Positions 2,143-37,562 of a DNA stretch of 37,755 nucleotides are shown here, in pieces. The DNA lies in NCBI GenBank assembly GCA_902792535.1, contig CADAZU010000014.1:1-37755 (forward strand), given 5' to 3'. This stretch comes from an uncultured Bacteroidales bacterium (GTDB taxonomy: Bacteria; Bacteroidota; Bacteroidia; Bacteroidales; Paludibacteraceae). The position numbers were made by a program, and so were the translations under genes. Numbering within the stretch: position 1 is the stretch's first letter; every line of letters begins with the position of its first letter. A model generated the notes under the pieces. It did not search any database and had not been told where the DNA came from. It worked only from the letters and a program-made list of their open reading frames with translations.

Positions 2143-2177
2143 AACGCTTTAACTGCTTAACAATTTAACGGTTTAAC
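2143..2177. repeat. 8-bp tandem array AACNNTTT
   Basis: Four units (AACGCTTT, AACTGCTT, AACAATTT, AACGGTTT) plus a partial fifth, ending on the stop codon of the GH32 tail fragment. The same family, in reverse orientation, occurs at 25059-25086. Confidence 0.75.
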
Positions 2178-2346
2178 GTACTTCAGCGCCTAAGATGTTG
2201 AATACCTCGCCATCCGGACGGATGATATAGAGCGTGCCGTCAATGAGCACCTTGGTACTTGGTACGTTGCTGCTTGGGACTTCCTCTATTGCCTGAAAAG
2301 GGTCTTGTTCCTCTTCAACGGGTTTCATGGTCCAATCCGAAAGACT
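2173..2346 (-). pseudogene. Orphan C-terminal tail of a GH32-like secreted protein
   Basis: The frame reads SLSDWTMKPVEEEQ and ends KVLIDGTLYIIRPDGEVF with NILGAEVR. The WTMK sequence matches the end of the GH32 beta-sandwich in the enzyme at 5151-7505 (SASAWTMKANED). The final 26 residues match the C-terminal cassette of three other proteins of this locus. An ATG at 2328 would give a 51-residue product, but nothing marks it as a start. I read it as the scar of a deleted GH32 gene. It is in frame with the small protein just upstream and separated from it only by that gene's TAA stop. It contains a 7-bp repeat array at 2251-2279. Confidence 0.6.
2251..2279. repeat. 7-bp tandem array, CTTGGTA type
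   Basis: Units CTTGGTA, CTTGGTA, CGTTGCTG, CTTGGGA. It lies inside the orphan GH32 tail, where it encodes the linker before the C-terminal cassette. Same unit family as 7454, 9802, 11470 and 19405. Confidence 0.65.
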
Positions 2347-2487
2347 TTAGTCCCCTATTGCGCCTGTGGTCGCCATTTGCGAAGGAGTGACTGTGATCGT
2401 CTTTGGGGTCGGGTCAGAAGACGCACATAGAGAGTGCATCAACTCGGAAACAAAAACCGCTGTTATGGGTTGTGTGTATTTTTTCAT
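2347..2487 (-). CDS. Small 46-residue protein at the end of the fructan locus
   Basis: Begins MKKYTQP, has a hydrophobic middle ending LCASS, then a Thr/Pro-rich polar C-terminus. A canonical AAGGAGG lies 8 bases before the ATG and overlaps the stop codon of the upstream gene (gap 13 bases). Such a strong Shine-Dalgarno is rare here and argues for translation coupled to the upstream gene. From memory, many Bacteroidales genomes hold unannotated peptides of the form MKKYxxP...(C/A)AS..., but no function is known to me. It could be a secreted peptide, a bacteriocin-like precursor or a small membrane-associated regulator; none is shown. Confidence 0.65.
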   Translation of the reverse strand: MKKYTQPITAVFVSELMHSLCASSDPTPKTITVTPSQMATTGAIGD

Positions 2488-2500
2488 AGTGCTGTCCTCC

Positions 2501-5150: not shown

Positions 5151-7505
5151 TTAGTGTATTTGGTTGCCTAAAATGGTATAAGTTCTATTGTTTTGCTCAA
5201 TGAGGAGTTGACCGTCGCGGAGGGTTTTGGAAGCCTCTCCGTACCTCCCCTGAAGGGAAGGAGCAACGATGTCTTGCGTCGGGTCTTCATTTGCTTTCAT
5301 AGTCCAAGCCGAAGCGGACTGCAGCGTCGTAGCGCCTTCAGCAAAGAGGCTCACGCCCGTTGCGGAAGCAGAGGTCGGGAAGACACGGACGGAAGTAGCC
5401 CAGCGGTCATTGATGAAGATATCGAGGATCGAATGGTCGAAGAAAAGGTGAATCTTCATCGTCTGTCCTGCGCTAATGGAGACAGGCAAGCCGGAGGAAT
5501 AGACACCATTGAAGACCCCTTCGTCATTCACCTTGCGCCCGATGGCGGAGCAGTCAATAGTGAACATGTTCGTAGAAGGATTGAAGAACACCTTGCACGC
5601 CGTTCCGTTAGCGGCTTGCAGCAGCTTGATGCCGAAGGGAGATGTGCCGACCGTGAAGGACGCTTCCACCTCGATCTCAAATCCTTTGACCGGATCCAAC
5701 GGGAGGTCTCCGTTGAGGGTCTGCTCGTCCTTTGTGACCATGGTCTCGGAGCGGAGAGCTGCCAGTCCCGAATAGGGTTTCTGCACCAATTCGCCCTGGG
5801 CGTCTATACTCCACTCTCGCGGGAATGAGAGGGTGTGTGCCCAGCCCATGTTGTAGTTCTGGTTACCGGAGAGTTTGTCGGGCACGATACCGAGTGCGAT
5901 GGTCTTGCCGTCATGCTGGTAGATCGTCGGCGAAAGGAGTCCGTAGCCGTCGCGCGCCATGCCGGTCAGTTCGACCGTCTTAGGTGCAGACTGGGTCGTT
6001 TGGAACGTACCGTTGCTGTTGATCGAACCGACATAATAGATCGTGCGCACGCCCCGGGAAGTACCAAGCGGCGTAGCGGTAAAGAGCCATTTATTATTCT
6101 CCATAGGGGTGACATTCGGCATCTCGAAGAACGTACCGCATTGCCCCATGTTCGCACCGGTGAAGAAAGGAGTGCCGGTATAGTCAAAGACCTTGGTGGA
6201 GGGGTTGTATTTATGCAGCGAAGTGGACGCTACGCCGTTGCGGCCGGTACCGACGATGCAGTAAGCGTCGTTGCCGGAGCGGAAGAAATAGGGGTCGCGG
6301 AAGTCCGCGCTATAGCCCTCCGGCGTGCCGTTGATAACAGGGTTATTCGTCGCTTTGGTCCATGTATCCAGCCCTTCATCGACAGGCGAAGCCATATTGA
6401 TTGTTGCGCGGGCATTGCTCACGCCGGTATAGAGGATCCACGGTTCGCCGTGGGTGATCGCTTGGTCGGAGAAGACACAGCCGGACCAGCAGCCTTTGAT
6501 ATCGTAAGCTCGCTCCGGCGCGATGGCGATCCGCTCCTCCGTCCAGTTGCAGAGGTCGGGCGAAGAGACATGTCCCCAATGGAGACGGGACATATAGGGT
6601 CCGTTGCCGTTCTTTTGGAAGAAGAGATGGTATTTGCCATCGGCATAGGTCATTCCGTGCGACTCGTTCATCCAGTTCGACGCAGGCATAGCGTGATGCC
6701 GTGGACGGGTTATATCCGAAGCCCAATGAGAAGCCGGGATATTAAGCCCCTCCCGACCTCCCCGTGAAGGGGAGGAGGAGAATTGCGTCTGGACTTCATT
6801 AGCGGACAGCACTTCGCTATAGACATTGAGTTCGTCTATCGCGCCGTTGTATGTATTGAGATAGAACTGGCCGGACTTGACGTCGGTGGTCGATTTGCCG
6901 ATATAGAGATTGCCGGAAGGGGTGTTGATCGTGCCTTTGGCATAGGAAGACGCCACCTGTTGACCGTTCTGGTAGAGGACGATCGAGCCGGAAGCGGCGT
7001 CAACGGTAGCGCAGAGGTGTACCCATTCCTGCTTGGGGAAGAGAGCCGCCGGAGAGAGCGTTTTCTTCTCTCCGTTGACATAGCACGAGAAACCGTACTT
7101 GCCCTGCGAATAAAGGAAGAATGCGAAACCTTTCTTATTGGTGTCGTCGAGACAGGAAATGATCGCGCCTTCTTGGTTATCCGCTACATCCATCACCATC
7201 ATGGGATACGTCTGGCAGATCGTCCAGAAGGAGATGGAGAATTGAGAATTGGTGATTTGTGATTGGTAACTGGAGAGCGACACCTGCACGAAGGAGGAAT
7301 AGCCGTCCAGACGCAGGGCTTTGCCTTCCACACCGACCACATTGTCGGCATGCTTGCCGCGCACGGTATAGGTCTTGGACTTAACCGTTTCGGACACTTC
7401 TCCGTCTTCGTTCATCTCCATGGGGAAGGACATAACAGGGGTAGCGGCAAATGAAGTACCAAGGAACAAAGTACCAAGTACCAAGGTTAAAAAGGTCTTT
7501 TTCAT
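5151..7505 (-). CDS. GH32 fructan hydrolase with N-terminal LamG domain
   Basis: 784 residues from the ATG at 7505 (the frame extends three codons to a GTG). Signal peptide with h-region LVLGTLFLGT, LamG/concanavalin-like domain about 55-238, a Ser/Gly/Arg linker, GH32 five-blade propeller about 265-570, C-terminal beta-sandwich to about 737, and a C-terminal cassette (761-784). GH32 landmarks: RDP at 403-405 (transition-state Asp404) and the acid/base Glu461 in FFEMP (normally EC). The nucleophile motif reads WMNESHG (278-284) instead of WMNDPNG, so Glu281 replaces the catalytic Asp. By family and context it should act on levan or inulin; activity needs proof because of this change. Repeat elements make up the signal peptide, a LamG loop and both linkers. 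Confidence 0.88.
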   Translation of the reverse strand: MKKTFLTLVLGTLFLGTSFAATPVMSFPMEMNEDGEVSETVKSKTYTVRGKHADNVVGVEGKALRLDGYSSFVQVSLSSYQSQITNSQFSISFWTICQTYPMMVMDVADNQEGAIISCLDDTNKKGFAFFLYSQGKYGFSCYVNGEKKTLSPAALFPKQEWVHLCATVDAASGSIVLYQNGQQVASSYAKGTINTPSGNLYIGKSTTDVKSGQFYLNTYNGAIDELNVYSEVLSANEVQTQFSSSPSRGGREGLNIPASHWASDITRPRHHAMPASNWMNESHGMTYADGKYHLFFQKNGNGPYMSRLHWGHVSSPDLCNWTEERIAIAPERAYDIKGCWSGCVFSDQAITHGEPWILYTGVSNARATINMASPVDEGLDTWTKATNNPVINGTPEGYSADFRDPYFFRSGNDAYCIVGTGRNGVASTSLHKYNPSTKVFDYTGTPFFTGANMGQCGTFFEMPNVTPMENNKWLFTATPLGTSRGVRTIYYVGSINSNGTFQTTQSAPKTVELTGMARDGYGLLSPTIYQHDGKTIALGIVPDKLSGNQNYNMGWAHTLSFPREWSIDAQGELVQKPYSGLAALRSETMVTKDEQTLNGDLPLDPVKGFEIEVEASFTVGTSPFGIKLLQAANGTACKVFFNPSTNMFTIDCSAIGRKVNDEGVFNGVYSSGLPVSISAGQTMKIHLFFDHSILDIFINDRWATSVRVFPTSASATGVSLFAEGATTLQSASAWTMKANEDPTQDIVAPSLQGRYGEASKTLRDGQLLIEQNNRTYTILGNQIH
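5234..5271. repeat. GC-rich palindromic element, copy 1
   Basis: CCTCCCC..TGAAGGG..GGAG core, inserted in frame in GH32 between the beta-sandwich and the C-terminal cassette, encoding APSLQGRYGE. Closely related to the copy at 6744-6785. Confidence 0.6.
6744..6785. repeat. GC-rich palindromic element, copy 2
   Basis: CCCCTCCC..CCTCCCCGTGAAGGGGAGGAGG. It forms the linker between LamG and the catalytic propeller, encoding SSPSRGGREGL, in the same reading phase as copy 1. Confidence 0.7.
7237..7271. repeat. 7-bp tandem array in the LamG domain
   Basis: Five exact 7-bp steps on the plus strand: GAGAATT, GAGAATT, GGTGATT, TGTGATT, GGTAACT. It encodes SYQSQITNSQFS in the LamG domain and mixes the unit types seen alone at 23415 and 27572. 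Confidence 0.75.
7454..7489. repeat. 7-bp tandem array, AAGTACC type, in a signal peptide
   Basis: Units AAGTACC, AAGGAAC, AAAGTACC, AAGTACC, AAGGTTA. On the coding (minus) strand it encodes the LVLGTLFLGT hydrophobic core of the GH32 signal peptide. Confidence 0.75.
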
Positions 7506-7534
7506 CGTATTCACGTTTTTTTAATCAGTCAGCC

Positions 7535-8672: not shown

Positions 8673-9857
8673 TTACTTTAAGTAGTTAATAATGTTGGTA
8701 GTTAATATGCGGTTGTTTTCAGCATATTCGTTGTCTTCGTTGCCCATGGCATAAGCAGCCAGACCGTTGCAAACGACCGTTCCAAGGAAGTCGTCGTCGT
8801 CGGCTTTGAAAATGATCAGTCCGGCTACGGCGTCGTCCGAAACCTGTCCCCACGAAGCGAGGATCTCGGAGTTGGTCTGTTTTTGGAACTTGTCAAACTT
8901 GTTGTCTCCGGTCTTGGTGAACTCCAGCGCGTTCATATCCCAGAGGCAGTTATGGTCATAGCGGTAAACCGGTCCCATGAGCGGGAAAGTGGTGTTCTCG
9001 TCGCTGTTCTTCTGCATTCCCGCGAAGAGCGCGTGTCCGCGTTTGTCCATCTGCCCGCCGAGCAGGTTGGCATTGATCGACCATACATCCATGCCCTGCA
9101 CGCCTTCCTCCGAATTGAAGAGGTTCGGTGCATACTTGGCGTTCACACGACCATAGGCGGTGATGAGTTGGGTAGCATGTTTGGAGAGGTACATGTTGCC
9201 GCCATTCATGATATAGTTGCGCATGGCGGTCTTGACGGCGTTGGAGGTGAGTTCCTCCGGCAGGCTCTCTACACCTTGGGCAATGTCGATACGGTCCACA
9301 TGAATCCAGATCATAGAAACCTCAGCCATGTTGATATTCGCCATGTCTTCCGGGGTGATGAAGTTACCTTCGCCTTTATCCACATAGTTCTCCTTGAACC
9401 AGCGTGCTGCGCCCTGCTCTTCTTCGGTCTCCAGATCGCGGATATTCTCGGCAAGCAGCACCATAGCCGGACGCGCTTTCTCCTCGTAATTGATGGTGAA
9501 GATGAGCGCCGCATTGGGCGAGACGCGGCCGTCGGAGTATTTGATACGCACAGCGTAGGTCAGTTCGGTATTCACCGCTGCACGTTTGACCAGATAGGAA
9601 GTGCAGAGGGAGTCGATCTTGGTGACCTCGGAGTTGTTCTTCACGATCTCAATACCGGTCATTTGCACGCCGGAGGCAGGTTGTGCCGGCAGCTCCCAAG
9701 AGAGCGTCAGGTCACGGCCGGCAGTTGAATATTGCAAATTCTGAACTCCTGCCAAATCACTATTCCCCGCCTCGGGTATATTCACCGGAGTACAACCAAA
9801 CAAGGTACCAAGTAACAAAGTACAAAGTACAAAGGCTATTTTATTGAATGTTTTCAT
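8673..9857 (-). CDS. SusE-position surface lipoprotein with DUF4960-like domain
   Basis: 394 residues. Lipoprotein signal peptide with lipobox LFGC (Cys22), a fibronectin-III-like domain (about 36-125, LTLSWELP) and a DUF4960-like domain (about 130-394). Position after susD and domain content match the levan-binding surface glycan-binding protein of Bacteroides fructan loci (BT1761-like, from memory). It differs from the paralogues downstream: the Cys pair is absent (NSEILASWGQ in place of WNC) and AAYQWG is AAYAMG. It also lacks the C-terminal cassette, as expected if lipidation anchors it. The signal peptide core is built from a 7-bp repeat array. Confidence 0.82.
   Translation of the reverse strand: MKTFNKIAFVLCTLLLGTLFGCTPVNIPEAGNSDLAGVQNLQYSTAGRDLTLSWELPAQPASGVQMTGIEIVKNNSEVTKIDSLCTSYLVKRAAVNTELTYAVRIKYSDGRVSPNAALIFTINYEEKARPAMVLLAENIRDLETEEEQGAARWFKENYVDKGEGNFITPEDMANINMAEVSMIWIHVDRIDIAQGVESLPEELTSNAVKTAMRNYIMNGGNMYLSKHATQLITAYGRVNAKYAPNLFNSEEGVQGMDVWSINANLLGGQMDKRGHALFAGMQKNSDENTTFPLMGPVYRYDHNCLWDMNALEFTKTGDNKFDKFQKQTNSEILASWGQVSDDAVAGLIIFKADDDDFLGTVVCNGLAAYAMGNEDNEYAENNRILTTNIINYLK
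9802..9837. repeat. 7-bp tandem array in a lipoprotein signal peptide
   Basis: Units AAGGTACC, AAGTAAC, AAAGTAC, AAAGTAC, AAAGGCT. On the coding strand it encodes the TLLLGTLFG core of the SusE-position lipoprotein signal. Confidence 0.75.
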
Positions 9858-9883: not shown

Positions 9884-11522
9884 ACTTATATAGTCCGTTT
9901 GAGTTGGTTACCTCTTCGTACGGAGTCGGGAGGTAGATCTCGTCCTCGGACATGGAAGCATCGGCGTAGTACGGATGGAAAGCCGCTTCGGAAGCGAAGT
10001 AGGCATTCATGGTGTTAACCACAATACCCCAGCGCACGAGGTCGAACCAGCGGTGTCCCTCCATAGCGAGTTCCAGACGGCGCTCCATACGGACGGCTTG
10101 GCGTGCGTACTCTTGCGAAGCAAACGATGGATACGGCTCTACCTTATAGTTCGCTTTGGTAGCGTCCAACTCTGCCGGCACGTAACTCAGGTCGATAGAG
10201 CGTTGTGCTTTCGCGCGCACCTCATTGACGAGGGACAGAGCGGTAGAGAGGTCGTTTTTCTCTACGCACGCTTCGGCTTTGAGCAAGAGCACATCGGCAT
10301 AGCGCAGGAAGCAGAAGTTGAGCGCACTCGCACCCCATGGCCAACCTTGTACCATACGGCTGTCGGTGGGGTCGATACAGCATTTCTTATTGCTATACTC
10401 GCCGTAGATATCCTTGGCGCGGCACCATGCGTCGGTATAAAGGTTGCCGCGGAAGGGGAAGCCGATACGTCCTACGGTGAAGTCCAGACGCGGATCCACA
10501 TTGCCGGTGTACGAAGCACTGACATGATCCGAAGGTGCATTCTCCAGATACGGCAGACCGTTGGCGTCCGTGCGGAACGCGTCGGCGAGGTTCTGGCTGC
10601 CATAGAAGAAGTCGTCGCCGTTGCCGTAGAGGTTGCCCGCCGAATAGGTCACATTCAAGAGGTTAGACCAGTTGATATGCGCATTGTCGTCCGCCGTAGA
10701 GCATTGGAGCGCAATGATCGACTCGTAGGTGTTGTTGAAATCGATCTTGGACATATCCTGGTAGCGGGGATAGAGGGCGTACTTGCCGGAACCGATCACA
10801 TAGTCGGCATAGACAATGACGGAGTCCCAGTCCTGGGTGTAAGCACAGGCTTTCGCCATGAGCGCAGCCGCTGCATACTTATTGAACCGACCTGCCGAAG
10901 GCGCATTCTCGTCCATCATCTGATACGCCTCACGCAAATCCTGCTGGATGAAACGGTAGATGTCCGCCTGGGTGTAGGTGGTGTTGTTGGTCGCAGAAGC
11001 GTCGTCGTTCTCCGTGAAGTACGGCAGGTATTGGAAAATGCGCACGAGGTCGAAATAGTAGAACGCACGCAGGGTCTTCAGCTCGCCCAGATACTGGTTC
11101 TTGTTGGTAATACTCTCCGCTCCCTTGATAGCCAGCATAGCGCGGTGTACACGGGAGATAGCGTAGTAGTTGTTTTTCCATTTGTCCAGTCCGGAGACGT
11201 TATCGGAGAAGATATTACTGATCTCCAGCTGGTGGATGTTTCCTTCCATGGAGATACCGCCGCCGCCTTTGAGCGCGTCGTCCGAACGGACATCAAATAT
11301 CCAGTTGGTGCTCGGTCCGGCAAAAGCTTCGTTGTTGCCGAAGAAGTGCGCTTCGAGTCCGGCATAAGCGGACGCCAGCAAGCCTTCCACCGCATTCTCG
11401 TCCATCTGCTCCTCCGTGAACTGACCGTAAGGCTGCTGGTTGAGGATCGAGTCGCAGGAAACGAAGAGCAAAGTACCAAGCGACAAAGTACCAAGTACTA
11501 TTTTATTCAGTGTATTTTTCAT
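9882..11522 (-). CDS. susD: SusD/RagB family outer-membrane glycan-binding lipoprotein
   Basis: 546 residues from the ATG at 11522 (three extra codons to a TTG are unlikely). Lipobox LFVSC (Cys23) follows a repeat-derived hydrophobic core (IVLGTLSLGTLL). The N-terminal SusD-like region contains LKTLRAFYYFDLVRIF. The C-terminal RagB/SusD region contains VRMERRLELAMEGHRWFDLVRW, the usual family signature, near residue 500. It partners the SusC encoded directly upstream and forms the lid over the import barrel. Expected ligand is fructan, from the GH32 context. Confidence 0.95.
   Translation of the reverse strand: MKNTLNKIVLGTLSLGTLLFVSCDSILNQQPYGQFTEEQMDENAVEGLLASAYAGLEAHFFGNNEAFAGPSTNWIFDVRSDDALKGGGGISMEGNIHQLEISNIFSDNVSGLDKWKNNYYAISRVHRAMLAIKGAESITNKNQYLGELKTLRAFYYFDLVRIFQYLPYFTENDDASATNNTTYTQADIYRFIQQDLREAYQMMDENAPSAGRFNKYAAAALMAKACAYTQDWDSVIVYADYVIGSGKYALYPRYQDMSKIDFNNTYESIIALQCSTADDNAHINWSNLLNVTYSAGNLYGNGDDFFYGSQNLADAFRTDANGLPYLENAPSDHVSASYTGNVDPRLDFTVGRIGFPFRGNLYTDAWCRAKDIYGEYSNKKCCIDPTDSRMVQGWPWGASALNFCFLRYADVLLLKAEACVEKNDLSTALSLVNEVRAKAQRSIDLSYVPAELDATKANYKVEPYPSFASQEYARQAVRMERRLELAMEGHRWFDLVRWGIVVNTMNAYFASEAAFHPYYADASMSEDEIYLPTPYEEVTNSNGLYK
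11470..11499. repeat. 7/8-bp tandem array in the SusD signal peptide
   Basis: Units AAAGTACC, AAGCGAC, AAAGTACC, AAGTACT. On the coding strand it encodes VLGTLSLGTLL of the SusD lipoprotein signal. Confidence 0.72.
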
Positions 11523-18917: not shown

Positions 18918-18948
18918 TTACAATTTGACATTTGATATTTGACATTTG
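18914..18948. repeat. 7-bp tandem array ACATTTG
   Basis: Units ACATTTA, CAATTTG, ACATTTG, ATATTTG, ACATTTG. It fills the 36-bp gap between epimerase and helicase genes and includes the helicase start codon (18915-18917). Confidence 0.8.
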
Positions 18949-18953
18949 GCAAT

Positions 18954-25054: not shown

Positions 25055-25058
25055 AAAC

Positions 25059-25086
25059 GTTAAGCCGTTAAATTGTTAAACTGTTA
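25059..25086. repeat. 8-bp tandem array GTTAANNN
   Basis: GTTAAGCC, GTTAAATT, GTTAAACT and a partial unit, filling the 29-bp gap after glnS and supplying its stop codon. Reverse-oriented relative of 2143-2177. Confidence 0.78.
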
Positions 25087-26856: not shown

Positions 26857-27582
26857 TTATGCGCGGACGATACCTCTTGTGGAGGCACGTACGAAATCCA
26901 GAATGAGGTCCCGTTCGGGTGAAGCGGGTATTTCCGCTTCGATGCGTTCGAGCGCCTGGGAGACGATCAAGCCTGAGTTATAGATGAGACGGTATGTCTC
27001 CTGGATCGTGTGTATCTGTTCGGGCGTGAAGCCGCGGCGGTTGAGTCCGACAGAGTTGATGCCGCAGAAAGCGATCGGTTCTCTGGCGGCAATTACGTAC
27101 GGCGGAATGTCCTTGTTGATCTTCGATCCGCCCTGAATCATGACGTGCGAGCCGATATGCGAGAACTGGTGAACGAGTGTACCTCCGCCGATGATGGCGA
27201 AGTCGTCCACTTCCACTTCTCCGGCTAACTGGGTCGCATTGGACATGATGATATTATCATGCAGGATGCAATCGTGCGCGACATGGCAGTACGCCATGAT
27301 AAGATTGTTGGAGCCAATGACCGTTTTGCCTTTGGAGGCTGTACCGCGATGGACGGTAACGAACTCACGGAGGACACAGTTATCGCCAATGATGGTCCAC
27401 GTCTCTTCTCCGCGGAACTTGAGATCCTGCGGCACAGCGCCGATGACGGCGGAGGGGAAGACATGGCAGTTATCGCCGAGAATAACATTATCGTCGATAT
27501 AGGCAAAGGCGTCGATAGTGACATTTTTGCCGATTTGAGCCTTTGGGCTTACGTATGCTAATGGAGATATTTGATTGGTCAT
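26857..27582 (-). CDS. lpxA: UDP-N-acetylglucosamine acyltransferase
   Basis: 241 residues from the ATG at 27582. First step of lipid A synthesis: transfer of a 3-hydroxyacyl chain from ACP to UDP-GlcNAc. N-terminal hexapeptide-repeat left-handed beta-helix (about 5-180, for example IGKNVTIDAFAYI), catalytic-His region YCHVAHDC, and the FCGINSVGLNRRGF segment before the helical C-terminus. The start codon lies inside a 7-bp repeat array, so the first residues (MTNQ) are repeat-derived. It follows lpxC by 14 bp. Confidence 0.95.
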   Translation of the reverse strand: MTNQISPLAYVSPKAQIGKNVTIDAFAYIDDNVILGDNCHVFPSAVIGAVPQDLKFRGEETWTIIGDNCVLREFVTVHRGTASKGKTVIGSNNLIMAYCHVAHDCILHDNIIMSNATQLAGEVEVDDFAIIGGGTLVHQFSHIGSHVMIQGGSKINKDIPPYVIAAREPIAFCGINSVGLNRRGFTPEQIHTIQETYRLIYNSGLIVSQALERIEAEIPASPERDLILDFVRASTRGIVRA

Positions 27583-27599
27583 TGGTGATTGGTGATTTA
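27572..27599. repeat. 7-bp tandem array TGATTGG
   Basis: Four exact units (TGATTGG, TCATTGG, TGATTGG, TGATTTA). It spans the lpxC-lpxA junction and includes the lpxA start codon. This is where a fused FabZ domain would normally be encoded in Bacteroidales. Confidence 0.85.
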
Positions 27600-28499
27600 T
27601 TCGGATAATATCTGGTTTCTTAGACGGCGGACGCACTGGGTATTAAAGGTGTGTCCTGGTTTATAGGCGACGATACGTCCCTGGAGCCGCAGCCCGAGGA
27701 GGGAGAGGTCTCCGATGACGTCCAGCAGTTTATGGCGCGCCGGTTCATTGGGATAATTGAGCGGCGAGAGGTAACCGAGCTTCTTTGCATCCAGATGCGG
27801 CTGCCCCAGTTTGTCGCAGAAATAATCCATTCCGTCCTGGGACAGTTCGGTTTCGTAGATGACGAGCGCATTCTTGAGGTCTCCTCCTTTGATGAGTCCG
27901 ACGCGCAGGAGCGGTTCGATCTCGCGTACGAAACAGAAAGTACGCGCGGCAGCCATCTCGACAGGATAATCCTTGAGGTTCTTCAGCGTCGCGTGCTGCT
28001 CACGGAGGAGCCGCGAGTCAAAGGCGATGGTGATATCGACCTCGTAGTGGTCGCAAGGTTCGATACGCATGGTGTGTCCGTGCTCGGAGATGTACTCGAT
28101 GGGTTCGCGCACGACATATATCTGCTGTTCGGCGTCCTGCTCAACTATTCCGACACGCTGGATCTCCTGCACAAATAGTTTGGCAGAGCCATCGAGGATC
28201 GGCATTTCGGGTGCGTCCACATCGATAATACAGTTATCCACTCCCAAGGCATAAAGCGCCGAAAGGGCGTGCTCTACGGTTGAGATCTTCCATTTTCCCC
28301 GTTCAAGTACGGTTCCTCGCTCGGTAGCGGAGACATATTCCGCGAGTGCTTGGTGGCAAGGCTGTCCGGGCAAGTCCACGCGGCGAAGACAAACGCCTGT
28401 GTTCTCCGGCGCCGGATGGAAAGTTGCGGTCACAAACAGACCTGTATGAAGCCCTACGGAAGAGAGGGTAAAACTATCTTTTAAAGTATGCTGTTTCAA
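27597..28499 (-). CDS. lpxC: UDP-3-O-acyl-N-acetylglucosamine deacetylase, stand-alone form
   Basis: 300 residues, matching a single LpxC. It removes the acetyl group in the committed step of lipid A synthesis with a catalytic zinc. Zinc ligands are His77 (STVEHALSAL), His256 and Asp260 (ARHKLLDVIGD); the catalytic His is 283 (PGHTFN). RTFCF at 186-190 corresponds to the family RTFGF. In most Bacteroidota LpxC is fused to the dehydratase FabZ (about 460 residues); here the protein stops right after the LpxC domain and no fabZ is in the window. Confidence 0.95.
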   Translation of the reverse strand: MKQHTLKDSFTLSSVGLHTGLFVTATFHPAPENTGVCLRRVDLPGQPCHQALAEYVSATERGTVLERGKWKISTVEHALSALYALGVDNCIIDVDAPEMPILDGSAKLFVQEIQRVGIVEQDAEQQIYVVREPIEYISEHGHTMRIEPCDHYEVDITIAFDSRLLREQHATLKNLKDYPVEMAAARTFCFVREIEPLLRVGLIKGGDLKNALVIYETELSQDGMDYFCDKLGQPHLDAKKLGYLSPLNYPNEPARHKLLDVIGDLSLLGLRLQGRIVAYKPGHTFNTQCVRRLRNQILSE

Positions 28500-28503
28500 G
28501 GTA

Positions 28504-28538
28504 AATTAAAAATTAAAAATTACGAATTACGAATTGCG
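28504..28538. repeat. 7-bp tandem array AATTAAA/AATTACG
   Basis: Five exact units (AATTAAA twice, AATTACG twice, AATTGCG). It fills the lpxD-lpxC gap and supplies the stop codon and last residues of LpxD. Confidence 0.85.
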
Positions 28539-29558
28539 GGATGTTTTTCCGCTCTGTTTGAAGCGGACTACGGCGCGGCGCCATATGGAGGCGTCGATGG
28601 CAGGCGATCCCATGTATGTACCGGCTTTCCGGACCGATCCCGCGACACCGGACTGCGCGCCGAAAATACAGTTGTCGGCTATTTGTATGTGTCCGGCTAC
28701 TCCGACCTGTCCTGCGAGGATACAACGGGCACCTATTTTCGTACTGCCGGCAATACCGACTTGTGCGCAAAGGAACGATGAGGCACCGACCTCCACATTA
28801 TGTCCGATCTGGACGAGGTTGTCCAGTTTGGCGTTGGTACGAATGACGGTCGAACCCATCATAGCGCGGTCGATGGTGGTGTTGGCTCCGATCTCCACAT
28901 CGTCTTCTATGATGACATTTCCTATCTGCGGGATCTTTTGGTTGACGCCCTGCGCGTCGGGTTCGAAGCCGAAGCCGTCCGAGCCGACTACTGCGCCGGC
29001 ATGGAGGATACAGTTCGCTCCAATGAGGCAGTTGTAATAGACTTTGACGCCGGCATAGAGGACGGTATTGTCGCCAATCGTCACATTATCGCCGATATAG
29101 ACATGCGGATATATCTGCACACCTTTGCCGAGACGGACGTTCCGCCCGATATACGCGAATGCGCCTATATACGCATCGGACGGGATCTGTACTCCTTCGG
29201 AGACGAAGGACGGCTGTTCAACGCCTTTGCGGGGCGGGTTCATCGCTTTGGAGACGATGGAGAGAAGTTGCGCCATCGCTCCGCGTGCGTTGGGGACGAG
29301 GATAAAAGCGCCGGAAACCCCATCCCGCCCCTCCCCACAAGGGAGGGAGTTCGGATCGGCGATGAGGGATTTGGTGATGAGTACCACACCGGCTTTGGTG
29401 TTAGCGAGGAAAGGGAGATATTTCTCCTCCGTGACGAAGGAGAGATGTTTGGGTTCCGCGGACTCGATAGGCGCTACGTCGCAGACCATCGAAGATGCGT
29501 TTCCGTATAGTTCTCCGCCCAAGAGAGCGGCTATTTGCTGTGCACTAAACTGAATCAT
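28527..29558 (-). CDS. lpxD: UDP-3-O-acylglucosamine N-acyltransferase
   Basis: 343 residues. N-terminal uridine-binding domain (1-100), long hexapeptide-repeat beta-helix (about 105-310) with the catalytic His in VQIGHNVEVG, and GSDGFGFEP typical of LpxD. It adds the second 3-hydroxyacyl chain to the lipid A precursor. Residues 70-82 (NSLPCGEGRDGVS) are an in-frame insertion of the GC-rich palindromic element in the N-terminal domain, in the same phase as in the nuclease-like gene. Both its start and stop codons lie within tandem arrays. Second gene of the operon. Confidence 0.95.
   Translation of the reverse strand: MIQFSAQQIAALLGGELYGNASSMVCDVAPIESAEPKHLSFVTEEKYLPFLANTKAGVVLITKSLIADPNSLPCGEGRDGVSGAFILVPNARGAMAQLLSIVSKAMNPPRKGVEQPSFVSEGVQIPSDAYIGAFAYIGRNVRLGKGVQIYPHVYIGDNVTIGDNTVLYAGVKVYYNCLIGANCILHAGAVVGSDGFGFEPDAQGVNQKIPQIGNVIIEDDVEIGANTTIDRAMMGSTVIRTNAKLDNLVQIGHNVEVGASSFLCAQVGIAGSTKIGARCILAGQVGVAGHIQIADNCIFGAQSGVAGSVRKAGTYMGSPAIDASIWRRAVVRFKQSGKTSRNS
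29317..29349. repeat. GC-rich palindromic element, copy 4
   Basis: CCCCTCCCCACAAGGGAGGG core preceded by CCCCATCC, inside lpxD; coding strand gives SLPCGEGRDGV. Confidence 0.75.
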
Positions 29559-29595
29559 TTACACATTTACTTATTTTCTCATTTATACATTTCTA
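29556..29595. repeat. 8-bp tandem array CATTTACA
   Basis: Five exact 8-bp steps: CATTTACA, CATTTACT, TATTTTCT, CATTTATA, CATTTCTA. It spans the end of the HD gene, the 20-bp gap and the lpxD start codon (29556-29558). Confidence 0.82.
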
Positions 29596-30847
29596 ATGGG
29601 TCAAGGCGATATTTGAACAAATACCTCTTTGTCGGTTTTCGTGTGAGTGCGGCGAGGTCGAGGATTTCGCTGGCTTCGGCTATGTCGCGCACGGTACCAT
29701 CGTTATACAAGATGTCGATTGAGTCCGCTTTCTCGGAATAGGTATTGCTGGTGGATATATGTTCGGACCAGAAGTAACGGGCATCCTCTTCGCTGATATG
29801 CAGGGCTTCGGCATATTCGCGGTTGAGGGCTTGTTTTTGGGCATCGGTAAGCGGCTCGGAGAGCAGTTCTCCGCGGAAAAGGCGGCGGTTGATGAAGCTC
29901 TCGGAAAGAGCGGAGAGCACTTTGTCGCCGCTACTGATCCACGCCTTGATGGCGCAGAGCACGTCATTATCGTCCAGCAGGGCATAGCGGTCCAGCGCTT
30001 CGCTATGAACGGCAAAATCCGCAAACGTGATGTGATTATACAGGAAATAATGAAGCGCAGGGGAGCAGAATAATTGAGAATTATCTGATCCTTGCGCCAG
30101 CTCCTTTGCGCGGGAGAGGATCTGAATGAGTTGCTGCTCGGCGGCAACAGAGGTCTTATGGAGATAGACCTGCCAGTACATAAGCCGACGCGCGACAAGG
30201 AATTTCTCTACGGAGTAGATTCCTTTTACCTGCACGACGAGGCGGTCGTTCCGTACGTCGAGCATCTTCAGGAGCCGTTCGCTCGCCACACGCCCCTCCT
30301 GCACACCCGTGAAGAACGAGTCGCGGCAGAGGTAGTCCATGCGGTCCACATCCAGTTGGCTGGAGATGAGCTGGTGGAGGAAATGCTTGTGGTACTCGTT
30401 CTTGAAGATCGCGATCGCCATATCGAGCGGTCCTTTTTCGTTGCGCGATTTAGCGAGGTCTTCGTTGATGCGCTCCATCATCAGGAGAGATATATCTTCG
30501 TGGGTGACGCCATCGACGAGGGTATGTTCGAGTACATGGGAGAAAGGTCCGTGACCGATGTCATGAAGAAGAATCGCAATCATAGCTGCGGTTGCTTCTT
30601 CGTCCGTTATTTCAACCCCTTTGAGCCTCAGCGCCGTGATTGCTTCCTGCATGAGGTGCATCGCTCCGAGCGAGTGCCCGAAACGGCTGTGCATCGCGCC
30701 GGGATAGACCAGATAGGAGAGTCCCAATTGGCGAATCCGGTTCAGTCGCTGGACATAGGGATGCTGCAGGACATCGAATATCAGTTCATTCGGAATCGAG
30801 AGGAAACCGAAGACAGGATCGTTAATTATTTTCAGTTTGTTAGCCAT
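29579..30847 (-). CDS. HD-domain phosphohydrolase (dGTPase-like)
   Basis: 422 residues. HD-domain metal motifs: HSRFGH (53-58) and HDIGHGPFSH (95-104), followed by the conserved QLDVDRMDYLCRDS. It belongs to the COG1078-like group related to dNTP triphosphohydrolases; the exact nucleotide substrate is not clear from sequence. It heads the operon HD-lpxD-lpxC-lpxA-glnS-nuclease-like-phoH, an order for the first four that I recall as usual in Bacteroidales (apart from the missing FabZ). A short repeat remnant (DNSQLF) is near residue 258. Its start region is duplicated (see 30840-30860). Confidence 0.9.
   Translation of the reverse strand: MANKLKIINDPVFGFLSIPNELIFDVLQHPYVQRLNRIRQLGLSYLVYPGAMHSRFGHSLGAMHLMQEAITALRLKGVEITDEEATAAMIAILLHDIGHGPFSHVLEHTLVDGVTHEDISLLMMERINEDLAKSRNEKGPLDMAIAIFKNEYHKHFLHQLISSQLDVDRMDYLCRDSFFTGVQEGRVASERLLKMLDVRNDRLVVQVKGIYSVEKFLVARRLMYWQVYLHKTSVAAEQQLIQILSRAKELAQGSDNSQLFCSPALHYFLYNHITFADFAVHSEALDRYALLDDNDVLCAIKAWISSGDKVLSALSESFINRRLFRGELLSEPLTDAQKQALNREYAEALHISEEDARYFWSEHISTSNTYSEKADSIDILYNDGTVRDIAEASEILDLAALTRKPTKRYLFKYRLDPLEMYK
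30072..30085. repeat. Two-unit 7-bp repeat in the HD gene
   Basis: AATTGAG, AATTATC, same units as 7237 and 23415, encoding DNSQL. Too short to be certain. Confidence 0.35.
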
Positions 30848-30944: not shown

Positions 30945-31015
30945 TTTATGTTAGAAAAATTTAGGATCTATGGGCACGCCAGGAGCAGATTACCAGCACG
31001 CCAGCAGCATTATGA

Positions 31016-31070
31016 CGCACTTATCTCGCACTTATCACGCACTTATCACGCACTTATCACGCACTAATTT
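31016..31070. repeat. 11-bp tandem array CGCACTTATCA
   Basis: Five exact 11-bp steps (CGCACTTATCT, CGCACTTATCA three times, CGCACTAATTT) in the intergenic region between the divergent HD and ssb genes. No spacers, so not CRISPR. Confidence 0.88.
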
Positions 31071-32695: not shown

Positions 32696-33765
32696 AAGTC
32701 CTTTTTCTGACACCGTGGTATCCGTCTGAGAAAGACGCGATGAGTGGTCTCTTCGTGCAGAAACACGCGGAGGCTGTTCGTGCGCAAGGATGCGAGGTAC
32801 GGGTGATTCATTCGGAGGGCTGGCGGGACTTGCTTTTAGCATGGCGGGACCTGCGGCGCGAAGGATGGATGCCGGATGTGGTGCAGTTGAATGTCATCCA
32901 GAAACAGGGGCTTTTGGCGCTCTGGCTGAAACGGCGGTACGGGATTCCGTATGTGATCGTGGAGCATTGGAGCGGGTATCTGCCGGAGAACGGGATGTTC
33001 AGGCGACTGAACATTCTCAAAAAGAAACTCTATAAACGCATTGCCGCAGAGGCTTTTGCGATCCTGCCGGTAAGCGACCGGTTAGCCGAAGCGATGCAAG
33101 AATGCGGCATAGAAAACCGCAAGTGGCTGAGGATCAACAATGTGGTGGACGATTTCTTTTTCGAGAAATCGAAATATCGAGATAAAGATATACCGAACCG
33201 TCGAAAAAGGCTGCTGCATGTGAGTTGTTTCGACGAGCGGGCGAAGAACGTGAAAGGTCTGCTGCGGGCAGCGAAGATGCTGAGCGAACGGAGACAGGAC
33301 TGGCTGCTGGTGATGGTCGGAACCGGTATTGATTATGAGGAAATACGCGCGTACGAGCGGGATTTGGAGATCCCTGAAGGTCTGATTCGCTGGACGGGTG
33401 AGCTGACGCCGCGCGAGGTAGCGGACGAGATGCACCAAGCGGATGTGTTTGTGCTCTCCAGCCGGTACGAGACGTACGGCGTAGTGCTGGCGGAAGCGGC
33501 AGTTACGGGAATGAAGATTGTGAGTACGCCTGTGGGTATTGCTGAAGAAGCGGGTGCTCTGATCGTTCCGCAAGAGATCGCGCAGAACAAAGCCGGTAAG
33601 TTTGCGGAGTTTCTGGAAACGGCATTGTTCGAGCCGTCAGCCATCAGCCATCAGAAGTCAGCCGTCAGAAGTCAGCCGTCAGAGGTCAGAAGTCAGTATT
33701 CAGCAGAGGAGATCGGAAAGAAACTCAAAGAGGTCTATGATAGCTGTTTGCATCGCGACATATAA
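32680..33765 (+). CDS. Glycosyltransferase family 4
   Basis: 361 residues from the ATG at 32680. The open frame reaches back to 31990 but only antisense-quality sequence lies there, and the preceding gene occupies it. GT-B fold: N-terminal LKVLFLTPWYPSEKDAMSGLFV, nucleotide-sugar half with VGTGIDYEEI, WTGELTPREVADEMHQADVFVLSS and the donor-binding E-x7-E motif (ETYGVVLAE). Retaining transferase, donor unknown. Residues about 320-343 are a long repeat insertion near the C-terminus (heptapeptides SAISHQK, SAVRSQP, SEVRSQY). The following gene starts 29 bp before its stop. Confidence 0.9.
   Translation: MANALKVLFLTPWYPSEKDAMSGLFVQKHAEAVRAQGCEVRVIHSEGWRDLLLAWRDLRREGWMPDVVQLNVIQKQGLLALWLKRRYGIPYVIVEHWSGYLPENGMFRRLNILKKKLYKRIAAEAFAILPVSDRLAEAMQECGIENRKWLRINNVVDDFFFEKSKYRDKDIPNRRKRLLHVSCFDERAKNVKGLLRAAKMLSERRQDWLLVMVGTGIDYEEIRAYERDLEIPEGLIRWTGELTPREVADEMHQADVFVLSSRYETYGVVLAEAAVTGMKIVSTPVGIAEEAGALIVPQEIAQNKAGKFAEFLETALFEPSAISHQKSAVRSQPSEVRSQYSAEEIGKKLKEVYDSCLHRDI
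33637..33706. repeat. 7-bp tandem array TCAGNNN x10
   Basis: Ten units in perfect 7-bp register, each TCAG followed by CCA, AAG, CCG, AGG, TAT or CAG. The longest array in the window, translated as three heptapeptides in the GT4 gene. Confidence 0.92.
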
Positions 33766-34674: not shown

Positions 34675-34736
34675 TAGCCGATTTTGAAATCTGAGTGCCT
34701 GCGGGCGGAAGACAAACGACCTAAAAAACACAAGAT

Positions 34737-35417
34737 ATGCAAGTAAAGAAATCAGAAAGTGCCAGCTTAGAGAAGGACAAACTCGTCTATGTATTGATGG
34801 GTTTGGTTTTCGTGCTCAGCCTCGTTTACGTAGCGCTGGAGTGGACTGAGCGAGAGGTCACAAAGTACGAAGTGACCGACACGGAGTTCCTCTTTGAGGA
34901 AGAAGTAGAGATTCAGCAGACGAGTCAAGAGACTCCTCCCCCTCCCCCACCCCCTGCCGTACAGGAAGTGGAAGTGCTGAACGTGGTAGAGGATAACGTA
35001 GAGACCGAGTCGATCGAGGTGAACACCGAGGACGACAAGGAGACCGAGGTTGTTATCGCTGCGCCGGTAGAAGCTCCCGTAGAGGAAGAGGAAGAAGAGG
35101 TAGTCTTCGTGGTAGTAGAGAAGATGCCGGAGTTCCCGGGCGGTCAGCAGGCATTGTTCAAATACCTGAGCGAGAACGTGAAGTATCCTGTTATTGCGCA
35201 GGAGAACGGTATCCAAGGTCGTGTGATCTGCCAGTTCGTGGTTAACCGTGACGGTTCGATCGTGGATGTAGAGGTAGTTCGTTCGGGTGGTGACCCATCG
35301 CTGGACAAAGAGGCTATCCGCGTCATCAAGTCGATGCCAAAATGGAAACCGGGTCAGCAACGCGGTAAACCCGTTCGCGTGAAATACACGGTACCGGTTA
35401 ACTTCAAACTCCAATAA
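34737..35417 (+). CDS. tonB: TonB family energy transducer
   Basis: 226 residues. One N-terminal membrane anchor (16-36), a short proline run (67-73) and a long acidic Glu/Val-rich periplasmic spacer (75-127). The C-terminal TonB domain (about 135-226) begins KMPEFPGGQQAL, with YPVIAQENGIQGRV and PKWKPGQQRGKPV as in Bacteroidota TonB proteins. It passes proton-motive energy to outer-membrane TonB-dependent transporters such as the SusC of this window. No exbB or exbD nearby. The acidic rather than Pro/Lys-rich spacer is common in this phylum. recG follows after 24 bp. Confidence 0.92.
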   Translation: MQVKKSESASLEKDKLVYVLMGLVFVLSLVYVALEWTEREVTKYEVTDTEFLFEEEVEIQQTSQETPPPPPPPAVQEVEVLNVVEDNVETESIEVNTEDDKETEVVIAAPVEAPVEEEEEEVVFVVVEKMPEFPGGQQALFKYLSENVKYPVIAQENGIQGRVICQFVVNRDGSIVDVEVVRSGGDPSLDKEAIRVIKSMPKWKPGQQRGKPVRVKYTVPVNFKLQ

Positions 35418-35441
35418 TCGGTTTAGAATGGCCATGCGGCT

Positions 35442-37562
35442 ATGGAGCTATCTCACAGAGATATAACGTATTGTAAGAATGTCGGTGCGAAGCGTGCCGA
35501 CATTCTTCGTAAAGAATTGAAGGTGAATACCGCGCTGGACATGGTGCGGCAGTATCCGTATAAGTACATCGACCGCAGTCGGTTCTACCGGATTGCGGAG
35601 ATAGAGGACGAGGACACGTATGTGCAGATCGTTGGCGAAGTGACGGAATGGCATACGATCGGCATCGGTCGGGCGCAACGGCTGAGCGCCACCTTCAACG
35701 ACGGAACGCACCAATGCGAGTTGGTGTGGTTCAAGGGCGTGCAGTATGTCAAGTTGCAGCGCGGGATCAAGTACTTGCTGTTCGGCAAGCCGAGCCGGTT
35801 CAATCACAGTTATAATTTCGTTCATCCGGAGTTGACGCCGTGGAACAAAGTGACGCCGGAGATGACGCAGGGTCTGGAGCCGTATTACAATACGACGGAG
35901 ACCATGAAGCGGCACGGGCTGAACTCCAAGGCGATACGCAATATCATTGCGGAGCTGATGCCGGAGCTGAAGATGGGTGTGCCGGACACGATGGGTGCCG
36001 ACATCTTGCAGCGGTACCGTCTGATGGGGTTGACCGATGCGCTGGTAAATGTGCATTTTCCGAAAGACACGCCGACGATGCAGGCGGCTCGGGCAAGGTT
36101 GAAATTCGAGGAGTTATTCTATATCCAGCTGCAGCTGCTGAGGCAGATGAAGCGCAGGGAGCAGAACCCGGGCTTCGCGATGCCGATGGTGGGCAGCCGT
36201 TTTCACGCCTTGTATAAAGCGCTGCCGTTTGACCTGACGGGTGCGCAGAAACGGGTGATTCATGAGATCCACGACGACCTGAAGTCCGGACGGCAGATGA
36301 ACCGGCTGCTGCAAGGCGATGTGGGAAGCGGCAAGACGTTGGTGGCGCTGCTGTGCTGTCTGCTGGCTGTTGACAACGGGTATCAGACCTGTATCATGGC
36401 GCCGACGGAGATATTGGCGAACCAGCATTACGAGACTTTGAAGACGTTCTTAGCGCCCTTAGGCGACGCAGTACATATCGCTCTGCTAACCGGTTCGACG
36501 ACCGCCAAGCAACGGGTGCCGATCCATAACGGATTACTGAATGGTACGATCCATATATTAATAGGTACGCACGCGCTCATAGAAGACACGGTGCAGTGGC
36601 GGAACTTAGGGTTCGTCGTGATCGACGAGCAGCACCGTTTCGGCGTGGCGCAGCGGGCGAAACTATGGGGGAAATCAGCTATCAGCCATCAGAATTCAGC
36701 CGTCAGCATTCCACCGCATATCCTGGTCATGACCGCTACGCCTATTCCTCGCACCTTGGCGATGACCGTCTATGGCGATCTGCATGTGAGTATCATTGAT
36801 GAGCTGCCTCCGGGACGCAAGCCGGTGCAGACCATCCATTATAATATCAACCGCCGCGCGCAGGTGTATGCTTTCTTGCGCAAACAGATCCAGGAAGGGC
36901 GGCAGGTCTATGTGGTTTATCCGCTGATCAAAGAGAATGAGAAACTGGACCTACAGGACTTGCAGAACGGTTTCAATGAGTTATGCGAGGCATTCCCGGA
37001 ATATAAGATCTCGATGGTACACGGTCAGATGAAGGCGGCGGACAAGGATCTGCAGATGCAGCGGTTTGCGAGCGGCGAGACCCAGATTCTGGTAGCGACG
37101 ACGGTCATTGAGGTGGGCGTGAACGTACCGAACGCAACGGTGATGATGATCCAGAACGCCGAGCGATTCGGTCTGAGCCAGTTGCACCAGTTACGCGGAC
37201 GTGTAGGACGCGGCGGGGACCAGAGTTACTGCCTGCTGCTGACCGACATGGAAATCAGCGGCGATACGCGCAAACGGATGGACATCATGGTGGCTACCAA
37301 CGACGGTTTCCGCATCGCTGAGGAGGACTTGCGTCTGCGCGGCGCAGGAGATATTGACGGCACCCAGCAGTCGGGCATTCCTTTTGATCTGCATATAGCG
37401 AACCTGTCCACGGACGGTCAGTTACTGACGCTGGCGCGTCAGGCAGCGATGGATATTCTGGACAAAGATCCGCTGCTGGAGGACGAGATGAACCGGATAT
37501 ACAAAAGAAGACTCGACACCTTGCGGATCGAGTCTCCTCAGAATTGGAGCGAGATAAGCTGA
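35442..37562 (+). CDS. recG: ATP-dependent DNA helicase RecG
   Basis: 706 residues, the normal RecG length. N-terminal wedge/OB domain (about 50-150), then SF2 helicase lobes: GDVGSGKT (292-299), APTEILANQHY, DEQH (395-398), TATPIPRTL (431-439), and the C-terminal QLHQLRGRVGRG region. It remodels stalled forks and branched DNA. Residues 411-422 (KSAISHQNSAVS) are a repeat-encoded insertion in the loop between motifs II and III. Probably co-transcribed with tonB. It ends one base before the convergent rpsU. Confidence 0.96.
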   Translation: MELSHRDITYCKNVGAKRADILRKELKVNTALDMVRQYPYKYIDRSRFYRIAEIEDEDTYVQIVGEVTEWHTIGIGRAQRLSATFNDGTHQCELVWFKGVQYVKLQRGIKYLLFGKPSRFNHSYNFVHPELTPWNKVTPEMTQGLEPYYNTTETMKRHGLNSKAIRNIIAELMPELKMGVPDTMGADILQRYRLMGLTDALVNVHFPKDTPTMQAARARLKFEELFYIQLQLLRQMKRREQNPGFAMPMVGSRFHALYKALPFDLTGAQKRVIHEIHDDLKSGRQMNRLLQGDVGSGKTLVALLCCLLAVDNGYQTCIMAPTEILANQHYETLKTFLAPLGDAVHIALLTGSTTAKQRVPIHNGLLNGTIHILIGTHALIEDTVQWRNLGFVVIDEQHRFGVAQRAKLWGKSAISHQNSAVSIPPHILVMTATPIPRTLAMTVYGDLHVSIIDELPPGRKPVQTIHYNINRRAQVYAFLRKQIQEGRQVYVVYPLIKENEKLDLQDLQNGFNELCEAFPEYKISMVHGQMKAADKDLQMQRFASGETQILVATTVIEVGVNVPNATVMMIQNAERFGLSQLHQLRGRVGRGGDQSYCLLLTDMEISGDTRKRMDIMVATNDGFRIAEEDLRLRGAGDIDGTQQSGIPFDLHIANLSTDGQLLTLARQAAMDILDKDPLLEDEMNRIYKRRLDTLRIESPQNWSEIS
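36675..36709. repeat. 7-bp tandem array TCAGNNN in recG
   Basis: Five exact units (TCAGCTA, TCAGCCA, TCAGAAT, TCAGCCG, TCAGCAT), read in the same phase as the array in the GT4 gene. Confidence 0.85.

Follow-up and report, generated by a model that had tools for sequence, protein, structure and literature searches.

Heptanucleotide tandem arrays in an uncultured Bacteroidales genome keep a 7-bp step across unrelated units and differ in content at the same sites between close relatives

INTRODUCTION

Among periodic repeats located between genes, tandem heptamers are reported to be the most abundant in a broad range of prokaryotes, and the excerpted text gives no clear clue to their function (PMC6344855). 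Polymerase slippage with a 7-nt step was proposed by Mrazek in 2007, as quoted in PMC4679880 and PMC4692102, and one such heptamer, TAACTGA, is repeated in five Bacteroidetes including Paludibacter, as well as in Beggiatoaceae and Cyanobacteria (PMC4679880); further literature on related repeats includes PMC6749651. Here we describe degenerate heptanucleotide (heptad) arrays in a stretch of 37,755 nucleotides (contig CADAZU010000014.1, hereafter the window) from an uncultured Bacteroidales bacterium, and in the 2.37-Mb draft genome that contains it (84 contigs, 82.65% complete; hereafter the source genome). The original prediction, made from the window alone, knew of no Bacteroidales counterpart to such repeats, a statement overtaken by the published heptanucleotide excess in many prokaryotes and by the TAACTGA repeats (PMC4679880, PMC6344855).

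The arrays resemble several described systems and depart from each of them. Like the heptanucleotide long simple sequence repeats (LSSRs) of Mrazek and SPADE (PMC6344855), they have 7 nt as the commonest step and occur in many phyla; LSSRs are abundant between genes, where the arrays here are enriched although a third of them lie inside genes. Compared with the excerpted account of LSSRs, their units are degenerate around conserved cores, they often sit in frame in conserved genes, their content at a given site differs between sister species, and one family forms a dispersed composite. The TAACTGA repeats (PMC4679880) are also heptamers, often near gene starts and missing from the corresponding intergenic site in some relatives, and according to the excerpted text some of them lie in open reading frames (ORFs), mostly at protein edges, whereas arrays are found here inside the AroB and RecG domains. 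The source genome has many families, and because only 3 of its 89 TCAGNNN units read TCAGTTA, the TAACTGA complement, we rejected the identification of its arrays as TAACTGA repeats. The short tandemly repeated repetitive (STRR) heptanucleotide sequences of Calothrix (PMC4692102) are likewise 7-bp tandem arrays with several sequences per genome, in a different taxon, and exchange in coding loops is not described for Calothrix in the excerpted parts of that paper. Borg tandem repeats (PMC9879509) are fast evolving and genome specific, form disordered segments within genes and have flanking partial repeats that are suspected seeds; the excerpt gives unit lengths all divisible by three for the genic ones, whereas the unit of 7 found here yields the same seven codons in three frames. 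Repetitive extragenic palindromic (REP) elements and REP-associated tyrosine transposases (RAYTs) involve short dispersed inserts, of which REP-like ones use the same sites as arrays here; as excerpted, REP elements are hairpins, many with a tetranucleotide tag (PMC3733652), whereas heptad arrays are direct repeats. An assignment of the arrays to REP elements (palindromes of 20-40 bp) was rejected for that reason. Hairpins dispersed as short inserts are also known as the Rickettsia palindromic elements.

We read the arrays as many families of dispersed inserts of ~20-120 bp with a degenerate 7-nt tandem inside, which would arise by slippage at a step of 7 together with copying that is independent of the flanks; to this explanation we give roughly an even chance. 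In a literature search covering mainly open-access work, we found no report of heptad families swapped at the same codons between sister species. New beyond that literature are the in-frame genic arrays, the exchange of families at one site, the change in place by whole units and the stereotyped dispersed composite.

RESULTS AND DISCUSSION

A 7-bp step in the window and the source genome

When the window was scanned for self-similarity at fixed lags (match +1, mismatch -1, threshold 12), we found 13 segments at lag 7, compared with a mean of 0.04 and a maximum of 1 in 100 third-order Markov simulations, which rules out base composition as the source of the excess. The other lags from 4 to 15 gave 0 to 8 segments, the highest count falling at lag 14, twice the unit. 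Tandem Repeats Finder gave 18 period-7 rows at 15 places, with period 8 in four further rows and period 11 in several. All eight arrays named as examples in the original prediction overlap lag-7 segments where they had been placed, and the one near 7237, described there as mixed, does combine two types (GAGAATT and ATTGGTG, at 7234..7273).

The excess had been expected to extend genome-wide, and it does so over the 822,185 bases scanned (the window and 40 further stretches, ~35% of the source genome; mismatch -2, threshold 12), with 76 segments at lag 7 and none in one fourth-order simulation. Neighbouring lags gave 2 (lag 5), 3 (lag 6), 19 (lag 8), 19 (lag 9) and 4 (lag 10) segments, and larger ones 35 (lag 11), 40 (lag 14), 26 (lag 21) and 27 (lag 22). 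An excess of 7-nt tandem units over neighbouring unit lengths, a mark of heptanucleotide LSSRs, is thus present in the source genome, and lag-7 arrays number 68-135 per Mb in five genomes. Of the minority of 8- and 11-bp units also described in the original prediction, the 11-bp ones form a genuine second step class, while some 8-bp arrays are mixtures of 7 and 8, such as the 15-bp pair at 19405. Among 25 arrays with the 11-bp step in the source genome, 22 are intergenic and one is gene-internal; examples are found at 31010-31065 of the window, L034:17460-17616 and L047:6479-6529, with the units ACCTAAGAATC, ACGCACTTATC and ACCCACTAATC.

Spread across genomes and phyla

The genus of the source genome is represented by 178 species, to which we refer, as to other relatives, by G numbers; the genomes are drafts. 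Lag-7 arrays occur at 68 per Mb in the source genome, 129 in G367, 107 in G055 and 100 in G059. G260, of another family in the same order, has 135 per Mb with a largely different unit pool, and two other genera of the same family (G101 and G211) had no lag-7 arrays in the 200 and 188 kb sampled. Of 295 genomes belonging to the order, 74 contain the TCAGNNN pattern, dispersed among families, and a scan of public genomes for TCAG arrays gave at least 119 stretches, from which we took 80 loci of many phyla. With their TCAG arrays set aside, these 80 loci, selected for such arrays, still gave 60 segments at lag 7, compared with 1 at lag 6, 8 at lag 8 and 7 at lag 9, and a non-TCAG lag-7 array is present in 32 of them. 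TCAG as a universal core was ruled out, the reversed control pattern being commoner in several genomes.

Since both G260 and the cross-phylum loci peak at 7 with other units, the 7-bp step does not depend on which unit is repeated. The 11-bp step occurs at ~30 per Mb in the genus and 2 per Mb in G260, was not found in the 200 and 188 kb of the two sister genera and is nearly absent from the cross-phylum loci. From these densities, step 7 is general and step 11 is local to the genus.

Different content at the same sites

Array content turns over site by site between relatives. G429 and G059 share 94.1% identity across 23.8 kb; despite this, both insert sites in aroB (Table 1) hold a TCAG insert in G429 and a REP-like palindrome in G059, these palindromes being elements separate from the arrays. 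At site 1 the source genome has a short insert of TCAG type, G034 has AAGGGAC, G003 GGTTACG and G032 AATGGAC. For site 2 we examined 48 loci, the best matches among the 165 of 178 genus species with a match, of which 44 were parsed and four did not fit the loop expression. A lag-7 score of at least 12 was found at 15 of the 44, with at least seven families distinguished by eye (AATTNTC/AATTCAC, TCAGNNN, GGTTACG, AATGGTA, ATCGTCA, TCACCGT and CTCAACT); elsewhere the loop consists of ordinary residues or, in G059, of a REP-like palindrome. Forty of the 48 AroB matches are free of stops and eight contain one, with a query that includes ~35 residues ahead of the likely start. Judged from these sequences, the two AroB loops appear to act as docking sites for inserts.

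Other genes behave in the same way. The epimerase-like gene has an AAGTAC array in the source genome, G429 and G059, a GTCGAAA-type array in G367 and none in G034 and G055, and the array in the DEAD-box helicase gene is found in the source genome only among five compared (absent in G429, G059, G034 and G055). In recG, G429 and G059 carry TCAG arrays with other variable bases. Several intergenic sites likewise differ. The 25050 site has related TTAAACNGT arrays in G018 and G032 and another array or none in G059, G034, G022, G003, G055 and G002; the 27568 site has different arrays in G429, G018 and G002 and none in G059 and G034. The 29550 site is stable, being identical in the source genome and G059, with a related array in G018, G034, G055 and G002 and none in G022, G003 and G032.

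Change in place

Arrays also change in place by whole units. In the HD-domain gene, G059 is exactly 42 bp longer than the seed in the source genome (83 versus 41 bases between identical flanks), which corresponds to six AATTGAG/AATTGAC units. The intergenic array at 20495 differs between G429 and G059 by exactly 7 bp, or one unit; the epimerase-like gene of G429 has 15 bp more than that of the source genome, which is one extra 15-bp AAAGTACCAAGGGAC composite; and AroB site 2 measures 63 bp in G429 and 42 bp in G018.

Units also change where length does not. Between G429 and G059, the recG array has differences at 9 of its 12 variable positions, at 0 of 20 core positions and at 4 of 60 flank positions. 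Across orthologous TCAG arrays of the source genome versus G429 and G059, changes affect 11 of 152 positions in the core and 34 of 96 in NNN (p 4e-8 if positions are independent, which does not fully hold, and a value that is too small given that two arrays entered twice). Among 39 TCAG ortholog pairs, many of them counted in both directions, the changed fractions are 10.9% for the core, 40.2% for NNN and 12.1% for the flanks; leaving out three pairs with family replacement, they are 5.2% for the core and 35% for NNN.

Dispersal and unit order

The AAGTAC family, with 25 arrays in the source genome, is one family with a stereotyped composite at unrelated loci. The second unit is of the two-letter AAGKRAC type in 19 of the 25 arrays, compared with 7.6 under permutation (0 of 5000 permutations reach the observed number), and no two 60-base flanks, compared without gaps, exceed 42% likeness on the left or 47% on the right. 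Two copies, at L015 and L047, have 34 bases exactly in common. Family abundance is also uneven: overlapping GGTNACN pattern matches in 25 genus species number 97 in G367, 67 in G460, 44 in G003, 38 in G018 and 25 in G439, with 0 in nine of the 25. GGTTACG is found at AroB in G003, G460 and G439, all rich in GGTNACN, and G367 and G018 are rich without having it there. In G367, 28 GGTNACN chains lie in 20 stretches, and three forms make up 132 of the 140 units, in an order indistinguishable from random. The original prediction had favoured copying with a fixed step over one spreading sequence. Its first half stands, as step 7 holds with other units in G260 and the 80 loci, but sequences spread too, as seen in the AAGTAC order at 25 loci and the GGTNACN range of 0 to 97.

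These data bear on in-situ polymerase slippage with a 7-nt step as the whole explanation, by which arrays would be born from a local seed and drift, with nothing moving between loci. It would account for a step that is general and sequence-independent, for length changes in unit multiples and for the pair of seed and expansion in the HD-domain gene, and in arrays of at least five units, neighbours resemble each other more than distant units do, a difference inflated by the lag-7 selection, which biases adjacent-unit statistics wherever arrays are chosen by lag-7 identity. Slippage alone is nevertheless insufficient, because the AAGTAC order is stereotyped at unrelated flanks, down to the identical stretch at two loci, and adjacent TCAG units are as unlike as random ones. 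The very unequal family counts between species and the whole-family differences at one codon also speak against it, and we consider it unlikely. Dispersal of one sequence is insufficient by itself as well, because the step is common to unrelated units.

Unit sharing is 0.088-0.106 within genomes (source genome, G367, G059 and G260) and 0.028-0.044 between the genus and G260; the dialect of units belongs to lineages, not clearly to single genomes. A uniform 4+3 core in all families was rejected, the overall excess of contiguous core being small (2.99 versus 2.71 columns) and clear in the TCAG family.

Some features of array ends were noted separately. Among the 28 TCAG arrays of the source genome, G and C stand four and three bases ahead of the first core in 96% and 86%, figures that the choice of pattern may exaggerate. 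The left ends look sharp (AGCNN, then the first TCAG) and the right ends diffuse, as if written one-sidedly. A common insertion motif in the flanks was not accepted; some GGTNACN arrays are preceded by GAG. Arrays that reverse midway (TCAGNNN, then CTGANNN) form heptad hairpins at L047:963-1026, L029:8146-8210 and near 34981-35030 of contig C20 in G429.

Arrays inside genes and reading frame

Arrays sit in frame in conserved genes, including inside the AroB and RecG domains. Gene coordinates were taken from a home-made gene caller or from open frames, with 83% of bases called coding; by this caller, the 86 arrays of the source genome with a score of at least 14 comprise 31 inside genes, 16 at gene edges and 39 between genes, so that arrays are enriched between genes, though a third are gene-internal. 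The gene-internal ones are in frame despite a unit that is not a multiple of three. As to a role as phase-variable contingency loci, in which a gain or loss of units turns a gene on or off, the listed genic arrays read as open frames. Because 3 and 7 have no common factor, every frame of a heptad array yields the same seven codons, and one without stops is therefore open in any frame. Of 28 TCAG chains, 22 lie in genes in sense, one in antisense and five between genes; the sense orientation points to selection, because the antisense strand reads a stop.

The same distribution bears on whether selection maintains the arrays as functional binding sites of a protein of translation or of the nucleoid, a role that has been proposed for TAACTGA upstream of starts. 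Cores that are conserved while other bases vary, and the numbers found between genes and at gene edges, fit such a role. However, the 31 gene-internal arrays, the change of family or loss of the array at one site between relatives and the many unrelated cores within one genome make it very improbable.

Candidate enzymes

We compared 30 array-rich and 30 array-null genomes, picked by pattern counts and completeness (G367 was chosen separately); several of the array-rich ones are congeneric, and array-null means zero matches to two patterns, with only G101 and G211 additionally scanned for lag 7, in part. Of the array-rich genomes, 29 of 30 have matches to Y1_Tnp, and of the array-null ones 16 of 30 (p 1.7e-4; with genome size taken into account, chi2 12.3). 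At genome sizes of 2.4-3.5 Mb the counts are 13 of 14 versus 4 of 13, and at 3.5-4.5 Mb they are 11 of 11 versus 9 of 10, giving no contrast. IS200/RAYT-like transposases track the arrays, then, as a correlation among related, hand-picked genomes. In the source genome the transposase matches are sub-threshold (Pfam Y1_Tnp, 8.8e-4; NCBIfam REP_Tyr_transpos, 34.3 bits with a cut-off of 80). Proteins of ~400 aa carrying a REP-associated tyrosine transposase domain in degenerate form are encoded at L316:1228-2421 (contig C62 of the source genome) and L322:550-1797 (G367); their matches to REP_Tyr_transpos (E 1.9e-8 and 1.9e-9) are weak and fall short of its cut-off. The source genome has four further, weaker REP-associated transposase matches.

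An HUH transposase (IS200/REP-associated, RAYT-like) might move arrays as non-autonomous cargo or target tracks, along with the REP-like palindromes, with the 4-5-nt cores as cleavage sites or guide-paired target tetranucleotides and exchange from core to core. The replacement of palindromes and heptad arrays by each other at the same codons, the Y1_Tnp contrast alongside equal RVT_1 counts and the weakly matching ~400-aa proteins all favour this. On the other side stand the lack of contrast among the larger genomes, the hand-picked and phylogenetically non-independent sample, the sub-threshold Pfam match in the source genome and heptad arrays that are not palindromic; moreover, G184 has arrays without a Y1 match, and in G211, which has two Y1 matches, 188 kb contained no arrays. 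We regard this as distinctly unlikely.

Other gene families did not separate the two sets. Loss of mismatch repair was rejected, with MutS_V in 60 of 60 genomes (a family that also covers MutS2-like proteins; G106 has one weaker match only), and so was a reverse transcriptase, whether of a diversity-generating retroelement or in telomerase-like synthesis, with RVT_1 equally frequent in the array-rich and the array-null set (14 of 30 in each) and no RVT_1 found in the source genome (82.65% complete), G305 (100% complete) or G367. A Y-family polymerase is present in 28 of 30 versus 29 of 30.

A proposed combination of slippage and flank-independent copying

In the explanation that we prefer, replication slippage that favours a step of 7 nt (in the genus also 11 nt) would make and resize arrays in place. 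Within genes only frame-keeping changes would survive, namely those of three units (21 nt), six units (42 nt) or a 7+8 pair (15 nt), and permissive protein loops would be favoured only because insertions elsewhere are lost. Copying independent of the flanks would carry pieces of existing arrays to new permissive sites, most simply by template switching primed by repeated 4-5-nt cores, a route that would join slippage and dispersal. Such copying would give each lineage its own unit dialect, and one site may then hold unrelated arrays, a REP-like palindrome or nothing. Both mechanisms, and the extension of copying from one family to all, are what we infer from these patterns.

Several results weigh against this explanation. 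Composite copying is seen for AAGTAC only: in TCAG and GGTNACN arrays, mosaics shared between loci show no clear excess over permutation (17 versus 16.4 pairs; 68 versus 67.7 triples; 17 versus 11.5 runs of four, p 0.08), and composite copying was rejected for these two families. Adjacent TCAG units are identical in 5 of 61 cases, with 9.9% expected for random draws from the pool; plain slippage gives no reason to expect this. Unit sharing between genus species is 0.067-0.105 (orthologues counted), overlapping the within-genome values, and within G055 (24 arrays) it is 0.058, below its sharing with the source genome. The core contrast is absent in two arrays (4 of 36 core and 2 of 24 NNN positions between G429 and G059; 2 of 16 and 0 of 9 between G018 and G367). 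Among the gene families compared (MutS_V, RVT_1, Y-family polymerase and Y1_Tnp), no copying enzyme was identified. Finally, AroB site 2 of the source genome, of AATT type, resembles that of the distant G034 (65% AroB identity) and not that of G429.

This last result, with an AATTGAG array near one site in G059 and G055 that is not found in the source genome and G429, suggests that allelic exchange between species may lie behind some of the site changes. As an account of all site differences, with no mobility of arrays, homologous exchange of gene alleles leaves unexplained the birth of arrays, their dispersal to unrelated loci and the seven or more families at one codon, and its probability seems to us very small. 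A bolder form of the mobile reading is that heptad arrays are a novel type of mobile insert, which an IS200/RAYT-type single-strand nuclease, or an equivalent template switching with a 7-nt stride, moves and recombines core to core with REP-like palindromes, the permissive loops of conserved enzymes serving as docking sites whose linkers are replaced over short evolutionary times; we think this rather unlikely.

Conserved enzymes tolerate linkers that are not the same in closely related species. The same AroB loops with different arrays across the genus, together with sister genera that are array-free in the parts sampled, offer a natural experiment on the abundance of heptamers in bacteria, and the prevalence of tandem heptamers in prokaryotes becomes directly testable in a genus of 178 species.

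Catalogue of sites in the window

Table 1. Arrays and insert sites in the window
Feature	Position	Strand	Context
Mixed heptad array GAGAATT / ATTGGTG	7234..7273	-	In frame in glycosyl hydrolase 32 gene, at start of Laminin_G_3 match (Pfam on 5151-7514)
AAGTAC-family array, order T-GA-T-T	7454..7485	+	N-terminal codons of same open frame as 7234 array
AAGTAC-family array	9800..9834	+	Close to start of ORF 8673-9857
AAGTAC-family array (by eye)	11471..11498	+	Close to start of ORF 9882-11531
GGTGACG array	18150..18203	-	DEAD-box helicase gene, in frame, between DEAD and Helicase_C matches
ATTTGAC array	18914..18954	+	Between two genes; same family in G059, CTTTCAA array there in G429
AAGTAC-family array	19400..19445	-	Inside NAD-epimerase-like gene
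ATTTGTA/GTTTGTG array	20495..20530	+	Intergenic; other sequence in G429 and G059
11-bp-step array	22788..22828	+	Inside aroB; sole gene-internal one of 25
AroB insert site 1, short TCAG type, under array threshold	23200..23236	+	Pfam DHQ_synthase
AroB insert site 2, AATTNTC array	23409..23446	+	Pfam DHQ_synthase
8-bp-step array TAAACTGT	25050..25090	+	Between genes
ATTGGTG array	27568..27600	+	Close to gene boundary
AAATTAA/AATTACG array	28500..28540	+	Between two genes
CATTTACA array, 8-bp step	29550..29595	+	Between genes
Short AATTGAGAATT seed	30057..30097	-	Inside HD-domain gene
11-bp-step array TTATCACGCAC	31010..31065	+	Intergenic
TCAGNNN array, 10 cores	33632..33706	+	Group 1 glycosyltransferase gene, past last domain match; frame end 33765
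TCAGNNN array	36672..36712	+	Inside recG, in DEAD-domain-matched stretch

Two other kinds of repeated sequence were noted in the window. A promoter-like sequence, AAAAAAGCAGTANCTTTGCA, lies near gene starts at 30900-31240, 16329-16450, 1320-1345 and 34640-34670; a query of 30900-31400 gave 74 matches genome-wide, many of which appear to land on AAAAAAGCAGTANCTTTGCA, and by eye it looks like an unusually long conserved promoter. G+C-rich palindromes of the form CCCCACCC..CCTCCCC-ACAA-GGGGAGGG lie in open frames at 24805-24850, 29318-29355, 6745-6785 and 5230-5260, and the first two of these sites have plain sequence in some relatives.

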